Shown: positions 12,477-39,649, numbered from the stretch's first letter. The stretch is 39,649 bases of DNA from a virus (IMGVR_UViG_3300009173_000032:1-39649), one strand, 5' to 3'. Program-made: numbers and translations. The notes: generated from the letters alone by a model not told the origin.

Positions 12477-13512
12477 CCAACAAAAGGCATACATTGATGC
12501 GAATCACAAGGAGTTGCCTGACTTGATACAACTCACGAGAAGAGTGTTTAATGATGACTCCCTAGACGGGCGCACTAAACAAGGGAAACTTGTGAGAGAG
12601 TTCTTGGTGGAGTGTGGGTTTAAATATAAGACCACTAAAAACAAAAAAGCCAAAAACATCTACTTAAGTGATGAGGAAAAGGAATTCATAGAACAATCTG
12701 CCAGAGACGGTATGAATGCATTTCAAACCGCCTGTATTATTTGGCATGATAGGGAAATCACTCCCTTAAGCAAGGAGACGCTAGTAGTGGCCGAACACAT
12801 TAAGTCCACAAAGCCTAATCTTCTACGGGCGGAGGATTCTGCGCTAGGAGAAGGGTACGAACCTCCACAAACTTCTTCGGCGGCAATAAAGCTATTAAAT
12901 CGGTATTGTTCAGCAAACATAAAGCCAGAAGCAATATCCTTAAAACAAAAAAAATACGTAGAGCAAATAATGAAGTTTGTTTCGACTCCTCGTTTCTTTC
13001 AAGTTATTAATAGTTATACTGATAAAGGAGACAGGGATTTATTTGAAGCAGAGTTTATTCGCACAACTTGGGATAAGCCTGATCTCACAGCAGATGAAAT
13101 AAATTTATATATCAATGTATGCATAGATTACATCAACCTTAAGAACATTAATAAAGCAATGGAAAAACTTAATAGAATGTTCCATGAAGCAGATGATCAA
13201 AGGGATATGACAGTAAGGCTTGCCGAATTATTAAAAACTAAAAGTGACGAATACAATCAATGCGAAAAGAGAATGGAGTCGCTCATCAACCGTTTAAACG
13301 GTGATAGAGCAAGAAGGATACAAGGAAGACAAGAGGAGAACGCTTCTATCTTATCTTTAGTAGAATTATTCCAGGACGAGAAAGAGCGTGCTATTATGCT
13401 TAAGATGGTAGAAATGCAACGAGAAGCTATTGATGATGAAGCTACCCTTATAGAATCAATGCCCGAATGGAAGGCTCGTGTTCTGGGCTTGGGGAGAGGG
13501 GAGGTAATATGA
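12454..13512 (+). CDS. Packaging-module protein of unknown function (candidate small terminase)
   Basis: This 352-residue, largely helical and charged protein starts at 12454 inside the 3' end of the sigma-like gene. The N-terminal 120 residues contain helix-turn-helix-like stretches (TKQGKLVREFLVECGF; SARDGMNAFQTACIIWHDREITPLSKETL). The C-terminal third is a likely coiled coil (KAMEKLNRMFHEADDQRDMTVRLAELLKTKSDEYNQCEKRMESL). DNA-binding N-terminus, oligomerising coiled coil and location near terL would suit a small terminase, but the size is large and no family motif is recognised. Confidence 0.55.
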   Translation: MEELQLTDQQKAYIDANHKELPDLIQLTRRVFNDDSLDGRTKQGKLVREFLVECGFKYKTTKNKKAKNIYLSDEEKEFIEQSARDGMNAFQTACIIWHDREITPLSKETLVVAEHIKSTKPNLLRAEDSALGEGYEPPQTSSAAIKLLNRYCSANIKPEAISLKQKKYVEQIMKFVSTPRFFQVINSYTDKGDRDLFEAEFIRTTWDKPDLTADEINLYINVCIDYINLKNINKAMEKLNRMFHEADDQRDMTVRLAELLKTKSDEYNQCEKRMESLINRLNGDRARRIQGRQEENASILSLVELFQDEKERAIMLKMVEMQREAIDDEATLIESMPEWKARVLGLGRGEVI

Positions 13513-14462
13513 TTGATCCATTAAAGCCTAATTTATATTGCAAGATATGTAGTGAGTCTTTCAAATCTGAACGGTCTTTACATTCTCATTTCAAGAAGCA
13601 TAAGCTTACGTTGGCAGAATACTATTGTCAACAATATCCTCGAGTTAATAAACTGAGTGGCGATCCGCTTCCTTTTAAGAATAAATTTGATTATTTTACT
13701 AAAGATTTTTCTACGCGGGCGCAAATGATAAAGTGGATTGACAAATCCCCCGTAGACGAAGTCAAGGAGTATATTCTTAATCAGTTACGTTTTCGTATTC
13801 AAAATAAAAATTTGAGATTGGGTCCCTCTCACATCGAAATTGAAACATTAAAATTACCTCCTATTGAGGTTTATATTGAGTATTTCGATTCGTATTCTAA
13901 TGCTTGTGAATTACTTGAAATTGAGCCTTTATTTAAAAGGGGGCTTGGCTCTCCTGAGCAATTTTTTGGATCAAGCAAAAAATTCGAAGACACGGAAATA
14001 TTTATAGATACTAGGGAACAGAAGCCTTTAGAGTTCCCGCGATCCCGTGATATGAAATTAGATTTCGGAGATTATACGGTAGGTGGGGATGATTATGCCT
14101 ATACCTACGTGGACCGTAAAAGTGAGGCAGACTTCAAGTCCACACTTAGTACTGGATTAGAAAGATTTAAACGAGAGCTTGATCGAGCGAGGGAGTTCGA
14201 TAGTTATCTATATATAGTAACCGAAAGCGATATAGCTAAAATTAAAAAAAATAATATATTCGGGCCACACAAATCTAATCTAGAATATGTCTTCCATAAC
14301 CTAAGAGTATTAAGTCATGAGTATGCAGATACTTGTCAGTTCATGTTTACTAGTAATAGAAGTAATTCTACTAATATTATTCCCAAGCTATTGGTGGGAG
14401 GGAGGAAATTGTGGAATGTGGATTTTCAATATTATATTGATCACTATGGAATTATGTCTTAA
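13509..14462 (+). CDS. C2H2 zinc finger plus ERCC4-type nuclease
   Basis: The start at 13509 has a strong GGGGAGG Shine-Dalgarno and overlaps the previous stop (ATGA); the longer ORF from 13467 is not needed. Residues 11-31 hold a classical C2H2 finger (C11, C14, H27, H31). Residues about 163-240 match an ERCC4/XPF-type nuclease: IFIDTREQKPL (D167), LDFGDY (D188), VDRKSEADF (D202-R203-K204) and STGLERFKREL. Such nucleases cut branched or flap DNA. Placed just before terL, it may resolve replicated DNA for packaging. The active site looks intact. Confidence 0.82.
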   Translation: MIDPLKPNLYCKICSESFKSERSLHSHFKKHKLTLAEYYCQQYPRVNKLSGDPLPFKNKFDYFTKDFSTRAQMIKWIDKSPVDEVKEYILNQLRFRIQNKNLRLGPSHIEIETLKLPPIEVYIEYFDSYSNACELLEIEPLFKRGLGSPEQFFGSSKKFEDTEIFIDTREQKPLEFPRSRDMKLDFGDYTVGGDDYAYTYVDRKSEADFKSTLSTGLERFKRELDRAREFDSYLYIVTESDIAKIKKNNIFGPHKSNLEYVFHNLRVLSHEYADTCQFMFTSNRSNSTNIIPKLLVGGRKLWNVDFQYYIDHYGIMS

Positions 14463-30557: not shown

Positions 30558-30578
30558 GTGTAATTATTATCGCAAATG
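30558..30578 (+). promoter_or_regulatory. Late-type box upstream of the tape measure gene
   Basis: GTGTAATTATTATC (30558-30571) matches the box at 26477 at 13 of 14 bases, here 18 nt from its start to the ATG at 30576. Confidence 0.58.
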
Positions 30579-33500
30579 GCGCAGGAAAGCATAGGTATTA
30601 GAGTAAAAGCGGTTGGCCTACAGAAGGACGTAGAGAACCAAGCGAAGGCCGCACAGCGTACTATTTCGAAGACTCCTGTTAAATTAGCTTTGGACTCCAA
30701 GGCTTTCCAGCAACCTCTTGGCAGGATTTCGGGCGACATGTCGGAGTTCCAGAAATCCCTGGACGCTTCCACCGCTCGTGTATTTGCATTTGGCGCAACC
30801 GTCGGAGTGATTAACGGCATAAGCGAAGCCTTCAAAGGAACCACGCAGGCCATTATTGAGGTACAACGTGCCCTCACCGACATTAATGTTGTCATGGAAT
30901 TAAACGCCAGTCAATTAGACTCTTTTTCCGATGGGCTTTTTAAGGTAGCTCAAAATACAGCTCAAACTTTTGCGACTGTAGCTACGGCTGCTACGGAATT
31001 TGCGCGGCAAGGGCTAGGGGCCGAAGAGACCTTAAGGAGAGTAAACGATGCTCTGGTCTTGACTCGACTCTCAGGAATGGATGCCACCCGTTCTGTAGAA
31101 GCCTTAACTGCTGTTGTGAATGGCTTCGCCAAAGAAGGGCTCAATACTACCGAGGTGATTAACCGCCTAGCTAATGTAGACGCTGCATTCGCCGTAAGCT
31201 CTAAAGATTTAGCAGATGGATTATCGAGGGCGGGAGCTACAGCCCAGGGAGCGGGAGTAAACTTTAATGAGCTTTTAGCAATTGTAACATCCGTTCAACA
31301 GCAAACCGCTCGAGGGGGCGCAGTTATCGGAAATGCATTTAAAAGTATTTTTACTCGCCTTCAGCGAAGCAAAGTAAGAGAAACGTTAGAGGGGATTGGG
31401 GTGGCCACTACTGATTCTATGGGAGGTTTTAGATCTGCTATTTCTGTTTTGAAAGATTATGCTGGCGTTTTCCCTGCTCTAACTGACGCGCAACAGGCTT
31501 TTACTGCAGAACAAATTGCAGGGGTTTTTCAAATCAATAATTTAAAAGCCCTCGTAAATGATTTAAATAATGAATTCTCTATTTATAGCCAGGCTTTATC
31601 TACCGCTGCCAACAGTACTAATGAGGCTACTCGACGGAATGAAGCACTCAACCAAACTTTTGCTGCATTAATTGCTCAAACTGGAGAAGGTGTACGCCAA
31701 CTGGCTGAGTCTTTTGGGTCTCTTACTTTAGAGCCTGCCATGAATCGGGTCTTAACAATGTTGCAATCGGTGGTGGACACAATGAATTCAATGCTTGACC
31801 AAGACAGCGGGAACAAAATGATGCAAGGCTTTTTTAAGGGGTTAGGTAATTTTATTTCTGGCCCAGGATTGGCGCTCGTGGCAGGAGCCTTTGCGGCTCT
31901 TTTGAAAAATATAGCGATGATGGGGGCGGCTGCCGTTAAAGATTTATTTAAAATTAATACTGAAGCGGGTCGTCAAAAGGCTTTACAAGAAGGGATTTTG
32001 CAGGTTCTGTTAAAAGACGAAGCGGTTTATGGACGCCTAATCGCAGCAGGAGGAGATCAAAATAAACAATCTCAGGTTTTACTTCAAACAGTTCGTCAAA
32101 TTACTTCTGAGTACGCCAAACAACAGGGGCTTATTGTTGGTCTCGCAAAAACCCCCGCTATGAAGGGTGTCACCTTTCAAGGCGGCCAATTTAAGGGTAC
32201 CAGCCCAACGGGTCAAAAAAAAATAGGAGGGACCGCCGCTCAGGGATATGTTCCCGCAGAAAAAGGAGTAGTTTTTGCAGCGGGAGCCACGCCGAGTAAG
32301 GACGCCTTTGCCTTGGGAGGGATGCCTGAGGTTCAAGCAGCTCAAGCCGCAGGTTATGCGAAACCTGTCCAGCTGCATGAAACGCGAACAATGGCTGTTC
32401 CGAATTTGGGTCAAATAATATATAATACGCAAGAGCGCGTGGTTAACGTGCCTAATATGGCGCAGCCTTTTATTGTGCCACCCACCTCTTCTAAGGCCTA
32501 TGCTAATTACGCCGACACCGTAAAAGAAAAATTTGGAGAGCCCATGAGTAAAAATGTGTTGGGTCGCGCTTTCACCCCCGCTCAGCGAGCATACGCAGAG
32601 GGCTGGAGTCCTGTAGCTACAGCACAAAGAGTGGGAGAAGCGGCTCGGGCGGCCTCTGGCCTCGTACCTAATTACGCTATTAGCGCTAGAAACATACAAA
32701 ATTTGCTAGGGACAAAGCACAAAATTGACCCTACACAGTATTATGAATATCGGGGGACGGTAGCGAGGGGGTCGGCTTTGCAAAAGGCGTTTAAGACGGA
32801 TGAAGATGGCGCCCTTGCTTGGAACCCTAAATCTATTGTGGCGAGAAACCTCGCTAAAAAAGGTGATTTTGCAGGAGGACTCACAGAAGGAAAAGGACTG
32901 CGTCGCCATAAGCTTGAATCCAAGAGTGGAGTTTCTATGTTGCTTCCCGAGCAAACCTCCAGCAATAGTGCAACAGGAGTTAATATCTCTATTTCAGGAA
33001 AAGACTTAACAAAAACATTTAAGTCGGGCACCATCAATAAAATTGTAGGGAAACGAGCCTTAGCTCGCAAGGGAATTAGAACAGAAAAAGATGCGAAGAA
33101 GGCGGTGCGGTCGAGCCTTGCTAATGATATTTTTGATGTAAGCTTTTCGCGGTCGGGGGTCCAAGATTTAGAACGAGAGACTTCTCTGCGAGAAAAAATT
33201 GATACAAAACTGTCTTCACAGATGGCTAGCATTATGGGTTCTACCGCCAAGGAGTTGTTAACCCGAGCTAAGATGACCGCCCCTATGGATCAGGGCGCAA
33301 TACAACAAAGAGCTAAAAAATTAGTAAGCAGAAATTCCCCCCTCACGGGACAACTATTTGAAGATATTGTTACAATTGCAATTGGCAAGTCTCAGGAGTT
33401 TCAAGGTACCGACGATTACAGAACGTGGGACTTTGGCGCAGCCGAACGTGGGGGCCTAAATGAAATTTTTGATAGAGACGTAAGTGCGCGGTCTGATGCA

Positions 33501-36500
33501 AAAAGATCAGATACTCCCCATGCGCGGGCCTCTATAGCCAAAAAGAGTTTGGTAGGAACCCCCAAAGGTCGGGCACTATTAAAAAAGGCGGGGCTTAGGC
33601 TTGGCGGCTTAGGAGCCTCAGAGCTAGGGGCCAGCGGCTTAGTCCCTAATTTTGCTGGCCCCCGAATGACGGCCGCTCAGGCCGCCTTTATAAAAATTAC
33701 AGGCCCCAAAGAGATCGCAGCGAATAAAAAGCTCGGGTGGGAACCTGGTCCCAATGGAGGGTGGGAACGGATTCCTAAGGCTACAGCCCCGAAGGCTGCA
33801 GTAGCCCTCCCTAAGGATTTAGAAACTTTTAATAAATACCTAACGACTTTTAGAGCTAAGAATTTCAACGGAAACCCTATTAAATTTACCAAGGGTCAAG
33901 GTGCGCCTTATGTCTGGAAAAATAATAAAGCCGCGTTTTCGCGAGGGAACCCCAATATAGGGTTATCGCAGGGGTCTAATCCTGATATGTTTTTCTTGGA
34001 AAAGAAGGGTATGAGCGACGAGTTGAAAGATAAAATTAGAAAATTAATGTTTCAGAGCCCTCGTATGCAACGGGTGGATCCTCTTGGGGGAAAGATGGCT
34101 CAGAGGGAAAAGAATTATGAGCGCGCCAAAAGTGGAAAAGTGCGGGCTAAAGGTTTAGTTCCTAATTTAGCTGAACGCGCTAGTTTAACGGACCTTTCTA
34201 CTTTGAAAAAATCTCCTGGACTTCTGTCCAATGCCAGACAAACCTCCAGGTTATATGAAGCCGCTATGGGCAGCCAGCTTTATGATAATCCCGTTCAATT
34301 TGGAGATACTAGGGTTGAGAAAATCCAAATGGCTAGCGGCGGAATGGTTCCCGTGGCAGTCAATAATCAAGAGCAAGTATTTAAAACAGGTACAGATGTA
34401 AAGCGACATTTCGGCCTAAAGTCTGCCCCTGACGGAGGAATGGTATTGCCTCCCGCAAGTGCCCCCGTGGGCAAAGAAGCGAGAAAAGTTTTTACAGAAC
34501 GGGTACAAAATGCGGCAGGAGGAGTAGTTCCGAATTTTGCAGCAAGCTCTATGGACTTAGCTGATTTTTTTGATAAGCTAGAAAAAAGAGATCCTGAGGC
34601 TTTAGAAAAGAAAATTAATATTGGGCAGTTAAGTAAAGACCTTTCCAAGGGAGGCATATTGACAGGTAGTCACCCCGCCAATGTATTAGAAAAATTTCCA
34701 GGATATATGCGACTAGGGGGAAAAACCCCTCCTGGTCAAGACAGCTCTATTAGATTAAGCCCCAAGGTTTTGGGTAAATTAGGGTGGGGCGATAACGTTA
34801 CAGGATCCCAATTATTGGCCCTCAAGGGGAGTTCGGGCGATTCTACTTATAAACAAATACGTACCGCCTTACTTACCAAGGCAGCGCATGGAGAGGGCAA
34901 AAGACTCACGCAGACTTATGGGGGTCGCGCAGGTCAAGCAGGGATGAAGGTGAAGAAAAAAATGGAGGAAGCAATTAATGTTCCTGCTAATCTTCATGGA
35001 GTAGGAGCAGGGTTTGTAGACCCTCTCGGCGCAGGACAACAGAATTTTAATGTTAAAATGCAGGTTGGGGATCAACCTTATAATATTGATTTTCAAGGAA
35101 GCCATGTTTTTAAAAGCTTTATGCCTAAAATTGGCAATTGGCAGGAGACAGTAATAAAACAATTTAGTCAAGGATTGGCCAATATAGCTAAGAGCTTTAA
35201 TTTTTCAGGAGCTTTAGCTGCAGTTAAGGAATTGCCTAACTTTCCTGTAGAATTTAATAAAAGCCTTGACAAGACTATGGTCGCTACAATTGCAGGTAAT
35301 GCTTTTGACGCTACAATACAAACTCTTTTAAAAACAGCTCCTGGTTTTGATAGCAGGGGCAGTGCTGCCAAGCTGCCTATTCAGCGCAAGGCAGGAGTGG
35401 ACCCTATAGATTTAAATACCATTCCGCCCGCCTTAAAAGAAATAATGAATATACCTGCGATGGCGCACAGGTTAGAATTGAAGAGTACCTCCACGAGCGC
35501 TGATCTCAGATATGATATAGGAAAAAAGATTTTGGGTGTAATTTCTAAAAACCCAGAAATGGAGAAGAAACTAGGGATTGCGGGAGATAAAACGAAGAGC
35601 AAACGTTTTCAAGCGCTTGGTACAGAAGAGGACTATAAGCAAAAGGGCCTTCGTATTCAGCGTAAGTTTGCTGCATCTGCGGGTACTCCTTTGGCCGCAG
35701 GAATAATACCTAATTTTGCTTTTGAAGATTATGCTGATAAAAGATTTAAGTTAAATGAATTGCCCAAAAAGTTACCTGCTAATATTAGTGATGCAGTAAA
35801 AAGGGAAGAGGCTGCGGGAGTTCCAAAAAGCGCTATACGCGTAGATTTTCCTGCCGCTGGAGGGAGAGTGCCTAACTTTAATAAAATGCCCCCTATTGCG
35901 GTTACCAATACGGAGCATGAAGGGAGTACTTCTTCTGCCAAACAAGCCGTATCTATAGGTATTCGTAATAGGTTGACTGCTTATAAGAGCGCGGGCATTT
36001 CAGGTAATCCAATGCTTGCTGGAACAAATATGGAATTTGCCGCAGGCGGAATTGTGCCAAATTATGCGTTGCCTTTGGGGGGCGGAGGAGACCAGAGGAA
36101 AAGAAATAAACTAATAGCGGAATTATTGGAAGACATAGACAAGGCTGAGCCAGCTAAGGTAGGCAGCCCTGATACTCAAGAAAAGGTAGACGAGGCTCTT
36201 AACAAGGAGAAGGAGCGCATTAAAGGCTTACGGCAGCAGATTACCGAAAGATTAGACGTTAAGGAGGGATCGATTTTTAGTAAAAGCACTGGGAAAGATA
36301 CGCCTAAAATGTTAGAAATTTTACAAAAAAGGCAGGCAAATGAAGTCCTAACGAAAAAAGGCGAGCCGCAGCAAAGCAGAGCCGCCGCGTTCTCTACGAG
36401 CCAAATAGAAACAATGCAAACAGCGCAAACTTTAGAGGAATTTAATAAAGTTAGTGAAGATGCTATCCGTGACAGTAAAAAGCAATATGAACGAGGAGAG

Positions 36501-39500
36501 ATAACCCGCGGACAATTAACAAAGAGACAGAAGGCTATATTTAAACAGACAGGCTACACAGGTGTTGAGGCGCCCCAAAAGGCGCAGGAATTTAAGCAGC
36601 AAAGCGTTTCTAATGTAAAAAATCCTAAATTAAAAACACAGCTACAAAACCAAGCCCTGGCCCCCACGCCCGCAGGCGAGCTCACCCAAGCGCAACAAAC
36701 CGCTATTCTTGACGAAGGAGTAGTGAGAAAGAAAGATCTTAACCCGAAGGAAGGTTTAAGCGGAAGATCACAAACCATGCGGGCGCAGATGGAGACGGCA
36801 ATTAAGAAGCATGCCACATTGGGGGGCGCAAACATTACACCAGAGCAAAGTGCCCAGCTTCAGCCTGATGCAGAGGAAAGACGCCAATTAGTTAAAGCGC
36901 GAGATGCTGCGCTGAAAAAGACACAAATAGCTTTTAAGGCTTCGGATGAAGCACTAGGAGGGACCCAAAAGGGCACTGCTGGAGGCGCCAGGAGCGGAGG
37001 CCTCAACGCTGAAATCACAAAATCGGAAGCTCGCCAAAAACAAATAGTACAAAACGCTGCACAAGAGATAAGAATAGCTGAAACTAAAAAGGCGGATAAG
37101 GCGTACATGGATGAGGTTAAGAAAATAACGGGCGACGCAGGAGGCGACGTGGGCAAAAAACTGACACCAAAAAGTATTTCCGCTTATGAAGCTGCATTTG
37201 GCGATACTACTGAACAGGGAGAGGTAAGCAAAGGTAAAAAACAGTTTAGGGGTGATTTAGATACCGCCATAAGAACCCAGGAGGCTATTGACAATAGTAG
37301 GATGGAGGATGCCAATAAAGGCATTGCCGAACAAGATAAAAGGCTTGCAGCTTTAAAAGAAGAAATAGCCCAAGAAAAGAAAACTGCACGTAAAGGTAAT
37401 GAGGCGGAGAAAAAGGTAGTAAAAGTTAAAGAACAAATATTTAAGGATTTAAAGGCGCAGCGCAAACAACAAAACGCGGCTTCAGATAAAGCTTTCGGAA
37501 AAGGCATGCATCGTCCTGGGTTGGCAAATGCAGCTTTTACGTTACCTTTTGTTTTATCTATGGGAGCGGGAATGATGCCCGAACAAGCAGGAGGTACTAA
37601 GGGTGGAAAAACAATGGGGGCCGCTCAAGGCGCTATGCAGGGTGCGGGTATGGGAGCCATGGGCTTTATGGCAGGAGGCCCAACGGGCATTATTACAACT
37701 GTAATTGGGACGGTGGTAGGAGGACTCATGGGCTTCATGGGCAAATTAAGTCCCAGCATAGAAGAGCTTACGAAAAACTTTGCAGACATGAACGCACGGG
37801 CAGTTTCTGTTACAAACACTACAAGCGGCTATTTAAAAATTCAAGAGCAATTAAATCAAGCCCTACAAACAGGAGACGCAAAAAGACAACTAAAACTACA
37901 AAAAGACCTAAAGGAAGCTTTTGTGGATATCGTTGATTCTGATGTGCGGTCACAAATTATTAGCACAGGAGGAGATTTAGATCAGTTAGGAGACGTTTTA
38001 CAGAGAGTTAGCTTAGACGCTAAAAATGCCGCTCAAGAACTGGCACTTGTAGCTCAGTTTGCGCAGACAGGGGAAGACGCGGGGGGTTGGCACGGCATGG
38101 GTAAGCGGGCAGTTAAGGAAAGCGAAATAGAAAAACTTGGCCAGACGCTACAGTTAAAGGGAAAAATTGAAGACCCCAAACAAATAGAAAAAATTCGAGG
38201 AGCTATGTCGAAAGGGGACCCGCGCGCAGCGCTTGAGGGGTTTGGGCTTTCTGGTGAGGCGCAGGATACTATTGTTGACGATTCCCGCATGAAGGTAACC
38301 GATATTTTTAGAGCCATAGAAAAAGCGCTAGACAATAGCGCCCAAATAATTGAAGAATCTCGTTTTATAGAAATTCTCCAGAAAGATGCGCACTCCCTTA
38401 AGAGTTATAATGAAGAGATTACCCGCACCGCTAATATTTTATCTCGGGGTTATGGGCGTATAGCTGATTACTTTGGCCAGCTCTCAAAATTAAGCGAGAA
38501 TCTTTTTCAGCGCCGCCTGGCATTACGAGATACTCTGGGCCTAGAAGCGCCCACGCGGAGCCGCGAAGATTTAGCGGCTTATCGGACTGCTCAACTAGAT
38601 ACGTCACAAGCCATACAGACGCAAAAATTATTCGCAGACTTTATTGAGGAGTCTCGCGACTTCGGCAACGAACCCCTTAAGACGGCTTATGAAAGCGCAT
38701 TAGCCAAGAGTACATCCCCAGGGGGGATAGATCCCACTAAACTCGCAGAACAAATCCTTAGGGTGGTTGGGAACCCTAGGACGAGCGACGGCGAAACGAT
38801 CAAGCTAGAAGAGGGCTCCGACGAGATTGCAGCGAGGAATACGTTAATTAAATCACTTCAAGATTTAAACGTTTCTACTCAACTAGAGAAGGCTTCCATT
38901 GATTTAAACAATAGGCTTCTGGATAGGCAAAAACTAGTAGCCAGTCAGAGCCGCATGACCAAAATGTCCTCTGACGAAGTAAAGCTTTTTAAGAACTTCA
39001 CGCTAGTTCAAGAGGATCGCGCCCAGGATGTTTCGGACAATATCATTGCCCAATCCCAGAAGGCAAAATTTACTTTGGATTTGGCGAGCTTTTTTAAGCA
39101 GCGTAACATGACCACGAATGATGAATTTCGGGGAGACGTTCAAAAAGCTACAGAAACAAAGCTTTTAGTTAATTCTATTAGAACTCTTACTGCTTTTGGG
39201 CAAGAGTTTGTTAGAGAGACCGATCCTAACTTTGGGGTTACTGATCCCGTAAAGTTCTTTTTCCCCTCCCAGGCACCTGGAGAATTCGAAAAGGAGATGC
39301 AAAAACAAGAAGGAGAAAGTGATACTGACGCCCTAACTAGAATAAATAACTATGTAGAAAAGCTGCAAGATCCTACTGAATTTTTAAACACTAGGCTTTT
39401 TGAAACTCCTCAATGGGGGGAATATACCAAAAAGAACTTCTCGGGGCCTGATGGTGAGGAACGACAGCGAAAACAAGAAAATCTCGCAAGGATTTCTTTA

Positions 39501-39649
39501 GGCGGCACAAGGGCATCGATTATAGCTTCCAGAGCAGAAGAGGCTAAAGGACCTATGGCCGCGGCCGAAACTGGTTTAATGCTGCAGGATTCTCTCAAGA
39601 AGTCTGGGGTAGATATGCAGGAGGTGGTAGAGAGATTTTTCGGTAAAGG
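30576..39649 (+). CDS. Tail tape measure protein (partial, more than 3,024 aa)
   Basis: The frame is open from ATG 30576 to the window edge, 3,024 codons without a stop. Residues about 1-430 match the TP901-type tape-measure core (FAFGATVGVINGISEAF; FAQTV-like coiled helices; GLSRAGATAQGAGVNFNELLAIVTSVQQQTARGGAVIGNAFKSIFTRL). Residues about 690-1830 hold seven G-x-[VI]-P-N-[FYL] motifs and two segments with PD-(D/E)XK-like residues. Residues about 2319-2388 form a Gly-rich hydrophobic stretch (MGAAQGAMQGAGMGAMGFMAGG) like a membrane-inserting zipper. The rest is coiled coil. Tail length would exceed about 450 nm at 0.15 nm per residue. Many antisense ORFs are shadows. Confidence 0.9.
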   Translation, partial: MAQESIGIRVKAVGLQKDVENQAKAAQRTISKTPVKLALDSKAFQQPLGRISGDMSEFQKSLDASTARVFAFGATVGVINGISEAFKGTTQAIIEVQRALTDINVVMELNASQLDSFSDGLFKVAQNTAQTFATVATAATEFARQGLGAEETLRRVNDALVLTRLSGMDATRSVEALTAVVNGFAKEGLNTTEVINRLANVDAAFAVSSKDLADGLSRAGATAQGAGVNFNELLAIVTSVQQQTARGGAVIGNAFKSIFTRLQRSKVRETLEGIGVATTDSMGGFRSAISVLKDYAGVFPALTDAQQAFTAEQIAGVFQINNLKALVNDLNNEFSIYSQALSTAANSTNEATRRNEALNQTFAALIAQTGEGVRQLAESFGSLTLEPAMNRVLTMLQSVVDTMNSMLDQDSGNKMMQGFFKGLGNFISGPGLALVAGAFAALLKNIAMMGAAAVKDLFKINTEAGRQKALQEGILQVLLKDEAVYGRLIAAGGDQNKQSQVLLQTVRQITSEYAKQQGLIVGLAKTPAMKGVTFQGGQFKGTSPTGQKKIGGTAAQGYVPAEKGVVFAAGATPSKDAFALGGMPEVQAAQAAGYAKPVQLHETRTMAVPNLGQIIYNTQERVVNVPNMAQPFIVPPTSSKAYANYADTVKEKFGEPMSKNVLGRAFTPAQRAYAEGWSPVATAQRVGEAARAASGLVPNYAISARNIQNLLGTKHKIDPTQYYEYRGTVARGSALQKAFKTDEDGALAWNPKSIVARNLAKKGDFAGGLTEGKGLRRHKLESKSGVSMLLPEQTSSNSATGVNISISGKDLTKTFKSGTINKIVGKRALARKGIRTEKDAKKAVRSSLANDIFDVSFSRSGVQDLERETSLREKIDTKLSSQMASIMGSTAKELLTRAKMTAPMDQGAIQQRAKKLVSRNSPLTGQLFEDIVTIAIGKSQEFQGTDDYRTWDFGAAERGGLNEIFDRDVSARSDAKRSDTPHARASIAKKSLVGTPKGRALLKKAGLRLGGLGASELGASGLVPNFAGPRMTAAQAAFIKITGPKEIAANKKLGWEPGPNGGWERIPKATAPKAAVALPKDLETFNKYLTTFRAKNFNGNPIKFTKGQGAPYVWKNNKAAFSRGNPNIGLSQGSNPDMFFLEKKGMSDELKDKIRKLMFQSPRMQRVDPLGGKMAQREKNYERAKSGKVRAKGLVPNLAERASLTDLSTLKKSPGLLSNARQTSRLYEAAMGSQLYDNPVQFGDTRVEKIQMASGGMVPVAVNNQEQVFKTGTDVKRHFGLKSAPDGGMVLPPASAPVGKEARKVFTERVQNAAGGVVPNFAASSMDLADFFDKLEKRDPEALEKKINIGQLSKDLSKGGILTGSHPANVLEKFPGYMRLGGKTPPGQDSSIRLSPKVLGKLGWGDNVTGSQLLALKGSSGDSTYKQIRTALLTKAAHGEGKRLTQTYGGRAGQAGMKVKKKMEEAINVPANLHGVGAGFVDPLGAGQQNFNVKMQVGDQPYNIDFQGSHVFKSFMPKIGNWQETVIKQFSQGLANIAKSFNFSGALAAVKELPNFPVEFNKSLDKTMVATIAGNAFDATIQTLLKTAPGFDSRGSAAKLPIQRKAGVDPIDLNTIPPALKEIMNIPAMAHRLELKSTSTSADLRYDIGKKILGVISKNPEMEKKLGIAGDKTKSKRFQALGTEEDYKQKGLRIQRKFAASAGTPLAAGIIPNFAFEDYADKRFKLNELPKKLPANISDAVKREEAAGVPKSAIRVDFPAAGGRVPNFNKMPPIAVTNTEHEGSTSSAKQAVSIGIRNRLTAYKSAGISGNPMLAGTNMEFAAGGIVPNYALPLGGGGDQRKRNKLIAELLEDIDKAEPAKVGSPDTQEKVDEALNKEKERIKGLRQQITERLDVKEGSIFSKSTGKDTPKMLEILQKRQANEVLTKKGEPQQSRAAAFSTSQIETMQTAQTLEEFNKVSEDAIRDSKKQYERGEITRGQLTKRQKAIFKQTGYTGVEAPQKAQEFKQQSVSNVKNPKLKTQLQNQALAPTPAGELTQAQQTAILDEGVVRKKDLNPKEGLSGRSQTMRAQMETAIKKHATLGGANITPEQSAQLQPDAEERRQLVKARDAALKKTQIAFKASDEALGGTQKGTAGGARSGGLNAEITKSEARQKQIVQNAAQEIRIAETKKADKAYMDEVKKITGDAGGDVGKKLTPKSISAYEAAFGDTTEQGEVSKGKKQFRGDLDTAIRTQEAIDNSRMEDANKGIAEQDKRLAALKEEIAQEKKTARKGNEAEKKVVKVKEQIFKDLKAQRKQQNAASDKAFGKGMHRPGLANAAFTLPFVLSMGAGMMPEQAGGTKGGKTMGAAQGAMQGAGMGAMGFMAGGPTGIITTVIGTVVGGLMGFMGKLSPSIEELTKNFADMNARAVSVTNTTSGYLKIQEQLNQALQTGDAKRQLKLQKDLKEAFVDIVDSDVRSQIISTGGDLDQLGDVLQRVSLDAKNAAQELALVAQFAQTGEDAGGWHGMGKRAVKESEIEKLGQTLQLKGKIEDPKQIEKIRGAMSKGDPRAALEGFGLSGEAQDTIVDDSRMKVTDIFRAIEKALDNSAQIIEESRFIEILQKDAHSLKSYNEEITRTANILSRGYGRIADYFGQLSKLSENLFQRRLALRDTLGLEAPTRSREDLAAYRTAQLDTSQAIQTQKLFADFIEESRDFGNEPLKTAYESALAKSTSPGGIDPTKLAEQILRVVGNPRTSDGETIKLEEGSDEIAARNTLIKSLQDLNVSTQLEKASIDLNNRLLDRQKLVASQSRMTKMSSDEVKLFKNFTLVQEDRAQDVSDNIIAQSQKAKFTLDLASFFKQRNMTTNDEFRGDVQKATETKLLVNSIRTLTAFGQEFVRETDPNFGVTDPVKFFFPSQAPGEFEKEMQKQEGESDTDALTRINNYVEKLQDPTEFLNTRLFETPQWGEYTKKNFSGPDGEERQRKQENLARISLGGTRASIIASRAEEAKGPMAAAETGLMLQDSLKKSGVDMQEVVERFFGK
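32652..36068 (+). repeat. Seven G-x-[VI]-P-N-[FYL] motif copies within the tape measure
   Basis: In-frame copies are ASGLVPNYA (32652), ASGLVPNFA (33630), AKGLVPNLA (34146), AAGGVVPNFA (34512), AAGIIPNFA (35694), AAGGRVPNFN (35853) and AAGGIVPNYA (36039). These are protein motifs, not DNA repeats: codons differ among copies. They flank segments of 50-370 residues. Confidence 0.85.

Follow-up and report, generated by a model that had tools for sequence, protein, structure and literature searches.

In the phage tail, the tape measure occupies the tube and exits it as the DNA enters the cell. Enzyme motifs in tape measures are already known from mycobacteriophage TM4, whose tape measure contains a peptidoglycan hydrolase motif according to the available excerpt of PMC1796659, and nuclease effectors on tape-measure-like proteins are known from Tme, an endonuclease effector that is related to tape measures, belongs to the contractile injection systems of Streptomyces and has a proven nuclease domain (PMC11126660). 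Multidomain injected proteins are likewise on record as the polyvalent proteins of phages and conjugative elements, i.e. large proteins that carry enzymes and are thought to be delivered with the DNA (PMC5512222). In polymorphic toxins, as far as the accessible part of PMC3482391 describes them, a constant carrier has its toxin cassettes swapped by recombination. In the course of lambda injection, the tape measure has been found labelled beside proteins of the inner membrane (PMC13190303), and a large study of protein shuffling was unable to confirm genuine recent mosaicism in tape measures (PMC10684548). The locus that is compared with these systems below lies in a window, here the whole analysed stretch of viral DNA (IMGVR_UViG_3300009173_000032), of 39,649 nucleotides.

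A nuclease-like domain in the tape-measure protein

The frame at 30576..39647 (+ strand) is intact, encodes 3024 aa and extends past the window end. Its N-terminus holds the tape-measure domain PF10145 (aa 124-316, E 2.9e-27) and is matched by the PHROG tape measures with E-values down to 1.7e-54; this N-terminal domain, together with the very long ORF (3024+ aa) in a tail gene region, is what characterizes tape measures. The features relevant to the domain, all on the + strand, are as follows.

30576..39647, + strand: ORF of the tape-measure protein, 3024 aa, continuing beyond the end of the window (PF10145 and PHROG tape measures)
32655..32681, + strand: VPN motif SGLVPNYA, 5' border of the cassette; in relatives, the same borders are the exchange points
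32913..33608, + strand: nuclease-like domain, copy 1, aa 780-1011 (profile envelope E 2e-34, the domain itself being a seed row of the profile; AF2 pLDDT 84.8)
33348..33365, + strand: GQLFED, starting at aa 925, with the invariant G925 and with E929 in a predicted helix (translation, alignment, AF2 model)
33420..33437, + strand: RTWDFG, starting at aa 949, with the conserved D952 (translation, alignments)
33492..33509, + strand: SDAKRS, starting at aa 973, with D974-A-K976 as (D/E)xK on a predicted strand (translation, alignment, AF2)
33633..33659, + strand: VPN motif SGLVPNFA, 3' border of the cassette (motif position)
34518..34541, + strand: VPN motif GGVVPNFA, 5' border of the copy 2 module (motif position)
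34815..35600, + strand: nuclease-like domain, copy 2, aa ~1414-1675 (profile E 1e-36, itself a seed row of the profile)
35697..35720, + strand: VPN-type motif AGIIPNFA, 3' border of the copy 2 module (motif position)

The initial annotation had proposed a PD-(D/E)XK-like segment at 33343-33560. Its residues E929, D952 and D974-A-K976 are in frame within the intact tape-measure ORF at the positions it gave, but its domain boundaries were too short, as the profile envelope covers ~32913-33608. The second copy, the cassette exchange and the wider family were all absent from it. Copy 2, with the residues GNAFDATI (D1578), DPIDLN (D1612) and LELK (E1634, K1636), is diverged, and Asp replaces the helix Glu. 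When 12 related virus records were searched, the domain was present once per record in nine, always in the long tape-measure frame. Searches of Pfam and PHROG matched no family to the window module, a search for close relatives of the module found none, and named phage isolates gave no match to it or to the slot and downstream segment of the relative L007, so that the family has no cultured member among them. Elsewhere in the window, the ORF at 13467-14459 shows similarity to ERCC4-type nucleases (phrog_3490, E 9.6e-10).

Conservation of the residue pattern and predicted fold

In a single slot the pattern of Glu, Asp and (D/E)xK is weak by itself, since ~2.7% (about 3%) of shuffles of the window's 320-aa slot contain it, and its strength comes from its conservation across slots. 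It was present in 49 of 82 inter-VPN slots, where shuffles lead to an expectation of 1.75, and in 5 of 192 control windows taken elsewhere in the same tape-measure proteins. The loci of relatives were obtained from IMG/VR, a search with the L007 slot yielding 52 of them. Between their GxVPNF motifs, L003 (LFEEVI / WDFN / SDAKRT), L005 (IFESAI / FDFEE / ADAKRS), L006 (AFEIAT / DFDIR / GEFKVS) and L007 (IYEAAI / FDFVG / IEAKIS) have quite different sequences, with the same residues as the window at the same place.

The family domain comprises ~200-240 aa and was found in 126 modules between GxVPNF motifs of tape measures on IMG/VR contigs, many of them near-duplicates. Among these, the acidic position of the helix was E or D in all 126 (121 E, 5 D), the Asp was kept in 122, and both the D/E (65 E, 60 D) and the K of (D/E)xK were kept in 125. 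In alignment A1 (39 rows, 12-40% identity to the window), G, D and K were invariant and E nearly so, and in alignment A2 (70 rows) G, D and K were again invariant with E in at least 90% of the rows; the invariant columns thus hold in both alignments at 12-43% identity to the first row. The seed sequences had been chosen by motif, and an independent set was fetched via a 66-aa segment downstream of the slot, from which removal of sequences more than 70% identical left 27 new slot domains. Here G, E and K were present in 27/27, D in 26/27 and D-or-E in 27/27 (12 D, 15 E). These 27 were recognised with the A1 profile, which may bias the set toward the motif. Of the 53 non-redundant slots bounded by both borders, however, 51 hold the domain (many being rows of the model), and few members can therefore have been missed. 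The remaining two were L049, which holds other modules, and L108, which belongs to a separate E / DLV / EVK family.

The slot domain is under purifying selection, with dN/dS of 0.1-0.5 among the closer pairs listed. The active-site reading of the initial annotation is supported by conservation, in the 126 modules as well as in the independent 27. The conserved set is, in sequence, the residue signature of PD-(D/E)XK nucleases: an Asp is followed by (D/E)xK with interchange of D and E (126 modules; 26-27 of 27 in the independent set), and upstream lies a helix with a conserved acidic residue (AF2 helices 146-160 in the window domain and 86-105 in L007).

The fold was modelled by AF2 for the window domain (39-row alignment; pLDDT 84.8, pTM 0.78) and for the compact relative L007 (70-row alignment; pLDDT 87.8, pTM 0.81). 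Both models display the same order, with three N-terminal strands, two helices, the Glu-bearing helix and a beta bridge adjoining the Asp, then a helix, the (D/E)xK on a short strand, and further helices. The models of two distant members thus assign the Glu to a helix and (D/E)xK to a strand, with lower pLDDT around the Asp (block means ~62-77). Judged by the refutation criterion of the initial annotation, the two models do not confirm the fold, as their strand order differs and neither has an obvious alpha-beta-beta-beta-alpha-beta core. Foldseek (PDB, BFVD) and VIA-align returned no nuclease among the matches and no meaningful structural match, profile searches of PDB sequences gave nothing relevant, and no family of Pfam, PHROG or NCBIfam matched the nuclease-like domain. 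The hhalign comparisons with Mrr_cat, UPF0102 and PDDEXK_1 were not significant, a result of low power, as the control Mrr_cat recovered UPF0102 (93.6%) but likewise failed against PDDEXK_1. Because the AF2 core is non-textbook and neither a fold nor a profile match was obtained, we call the active site PD-(D/E)XK-like and do not assign the domain to the superfamily.

A more classical arrangement is seen in another family that occupies the slot. The slot domains of L108 and L241 are related to each other (BLASTP E 4e-10) and share the motifs YGExFE or YGExYE, NSA[VI]DLV and AEVKxG and a final strand-like segment. Their order of helix-E, strand-D, strand-ExK and last strand is that of the PD-(D/E)XK core. 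The next slot of L053 has FGNNAEKKA / SAVDFI / GVMELKAG, conserved in L241, and no Pfam model recognises slot domains of the L108, L241 or L053 type.

Exchange of the slot at VPN motifs

Exchange was assessed in 74 tape measures, for each of which the slot and its flanks (350 aa on the upstream side, 60 aa on the downstream side) were compared separately. The upstream parts were at least 80% identical in 150 pairs, in 104 of which the slot was less than 30% identical (some loci being duplicates of one contig), while the downstream parts in such pairs remained near 88-97% identical. L070 and L065 share 99.3% identity across the 1841 nt that lead to the first VPN motif and 99.1% across the 5192 nt that start at the second, with no similarity detectable by BLAST between the slots. 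Nevertheless, these two slots, which are also represented by the handles L013 and L027, both have E, D and (D/E)xK. This pair looks like a case of recent mosaicism in a tape measure.

The VPN motifs are the cassette borders, with breakpoints within a few codons. Over 91 pairs (a redundant set), the upstream match ended a median of 19 nt past the first base of G[YF]xPNF at the first border, and the downstream match began a median of 14 nt before xPNF at the second. Conservation of the border motif is at the protein level, approximately AAxG[YF][IV]PN[FY]A, with varied codons, and on the coding strand of the window the GxVPNF form is confined to the tape measure. All 53 non-redundant slots with both borders were filled, with 204-337 aa, and no empty slot was found among them. 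Such exact exchange at these motifs is what an effector engaged in an arms race might show.

The L070 and L065 flanks, 99% identical across 1.8 kb on the upstream side and 5.2 kb on the downstream side, were also inspected for a cognate immunity gene; none of the neighbouring genes differs along with the cassette, so that an immunity gene of the usual kind is absent beside it. Self-protection is consequently unexplained, which counts against the reading of the domain as an effector.

Other modules also occur between VPN motifs. One found in nine copies (e.g. L043:2945-3430 and L136:3669-4166) contains the Walker-A-like sequence VAPAGAGKT and hits AAA weakly (E ~1e-3). Three inter-VPN modules at L049:3211-5013 resemble, by eye, an ADP-ribosyltransferase, an acetyltransferase and a kinase; the ADP-ribosyltransferase and kinase identities (L049) and those of GNAT type (L048, L058) are not claimed, the database comparison being unconvincing. 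The inter-VPN module at L058:136-861 has 27-29% identity (E 4e-4 to 6e-7) to a stretch of a protein of 945-995 aa, the gene for which directly follows that of the portal in podophages CRP-207 and ctYwJ313; this module may be carried in virions of another type too. After the slot, many of these tape measures have a conserved segment of ~60 aa, AI.RE.AAGLP..QIRINQ...NP.GLAVTNTRDEPTG.IPNF, which was seen at L007:12380-12577 and in 186 similar stretches in IMG/VR. Against genome contigs, the 66-aa downstream segment matched only two MAG contigs and no isolate host.

Interpretation and comparison with known systems

The explanation that best accommodates these data is that the slot between GxVPNF motifs is an exchangeable cassette encoding a metal-dependent nuclease-like domain, which is carried as an effector on the tape measure; we give this an even chance of being correct. 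The active site would be of PD-(D/E)XK type, in which a helix supplies the Glu, the Asp adjoins a beta bridge and a strand carries (D/E)xK. The tape-measure protein would be packed in the tail tube and would probably reach the envelope or cytoplasm of the cell together with the DNA or before it. There the domain would act on nucleic acid, be it DNA of the host, of a plasmid or of a rival phage, or the nucleic acid on which a defence system acts. Nuclease chemistry, a PD-(D/E)XK fold, delivery and the target are what we infer for this domain, and ejection ahead of the genome with cutting of host or rival DNA, as put forward in the initial annotation, may form part of the same scheme. The combination of conserved catalytic-type residues and rapid cassette exchange fits an enzyme in conflict with hosts, defences or rival phages. 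On a wider and more tentative view, to which we lean somewhat less than evenly, the tape measure shared by a large group of uncultured phages could be a polymorphic cargo carrier. Its VPN motifs would frame a slot for divergent nuclease domains, and possibly for domains of other enzymes, that are swapped as exact cassettes and reach the cell as first-wave effectors, together with the phage genome or before it.

A domain of PD-(D/E)XK-like or unrelated fold could instead serve injection itself, through docking to inner-membrane proteins, pore formation or holding of the DNA end, and the slot could diversify to match host membrane proteins or to evade defences that sense tape measures, e.g. SNIPE. 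The tape measures of lambda and Bas14 decide which inner-membrane protein is used and are bound by the defence nuclease SNIPE (PMC13190303), and the slot is very diverse compared with its conserved flanks. However, a docking surface would not retain E, D and (D/E)xK across sequences without BLAST similarity, and we consider such a role unlikely. To an equally small degree we would credit an enzyme of other fold or chemistry with the same delivery, e.g. a different metal-dependent phosphodiesterase, a nucleotidyltransferase or a hydrolase. The AF2 topology, unlike the textbook core and lacking a structural match, speaks for such an enzyme, whereas the D/E interchange beside an invariant xK and the upstream helix Glu are the PD-(D/E)XK pattern, which the L108/L241 slot family has in canonical order.

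A selfish in-frame element, with a homing-type nuclease spreading itself through tape-measure genes, is a very improbable source of the cassette. The nuclease-like domain and the exact replacement of cassettes between near-identical phages would suit it, and homing nucleases are often found at phage gene-exchange boundaries, as stated in the available portion of PMC10448857. Yet no slot was empty among the 53, an intein-like or separate gene structure is lacking, the border motif is preserved as protein with varied codons, and the cassettes diverge strongly from each other. Finally, a motif that arose by chance in a coiled or disordered linker, which the roughly 3% of single-slot shuffles with the pattern might bring to mind, is contradicted by the slot counts (49 of 82 against 1.75), the conservation in the independent set (n=27) and the confident, folded AF2 models, and is scarcely credible.

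If the effector reading is true, the phage tail delivers an exchangeable enzyme besides DNA, which would offer a route for takeover, counter-defence or rival exclusion acting before phage gene expression, and would help to account for giant tape measures with globular modules. The active-site prediction rests on four mutable residues and is hence directly testable. The literature searched contained no nuclease-like cassette that lies inside a phage tape measure, can be exchanged exactly and is framed by a short motif across many uncultured phages, and nothing on VPNF or on injected effector domains in connection with tape measures.

Measured against the PD-(D/E)XK superfamily, including the T6SS DNase PoNe as the accessible part of PMC6688995 presents it, the order of helix Glu, Asp and (D/E)xK is the same, with similar spacing and D/E interchange; the domain differs in the helix between Asp and (D/E)xK and in three extra N-terminal strands (AF2), and neither a profile nor a fold match was detected. 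The phage tape measure of TM4 likewise contains an enzyme motif, though one that acts on the cell wall and whose pattern, in the excerpt of PMC1796659, is not that of a nuclease. As in polymorphic toxins, cassettes are exchanged behind a constant carrier (104 of 150 pairs, duplicates included), but the cassette here is internal and, in L070 and L065, no immunity gene beside it is exchanged with it. Like the polyvalent proteins, the window protein is large and multidomain. It has two nuclease-like copies, and other slot modules have only weak P-loop and acetyltransferase similarity; tape measures are unmentioned in PMC5512222, whereas here the tail tape measure is the carrier, with VPN borders. 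Finally, the locus shares with Tme a tape-measure-like protein with a nuclease, here putative, that is loaded in a tail-like particle (PMC11126660). While Tme has a C-terminal domain of EndA type (DRGH) and belongs to a bacterial system, the candidate nuclease described here would be an internal, exchangeable PD-(D/E)XK-like cassette of a phage.
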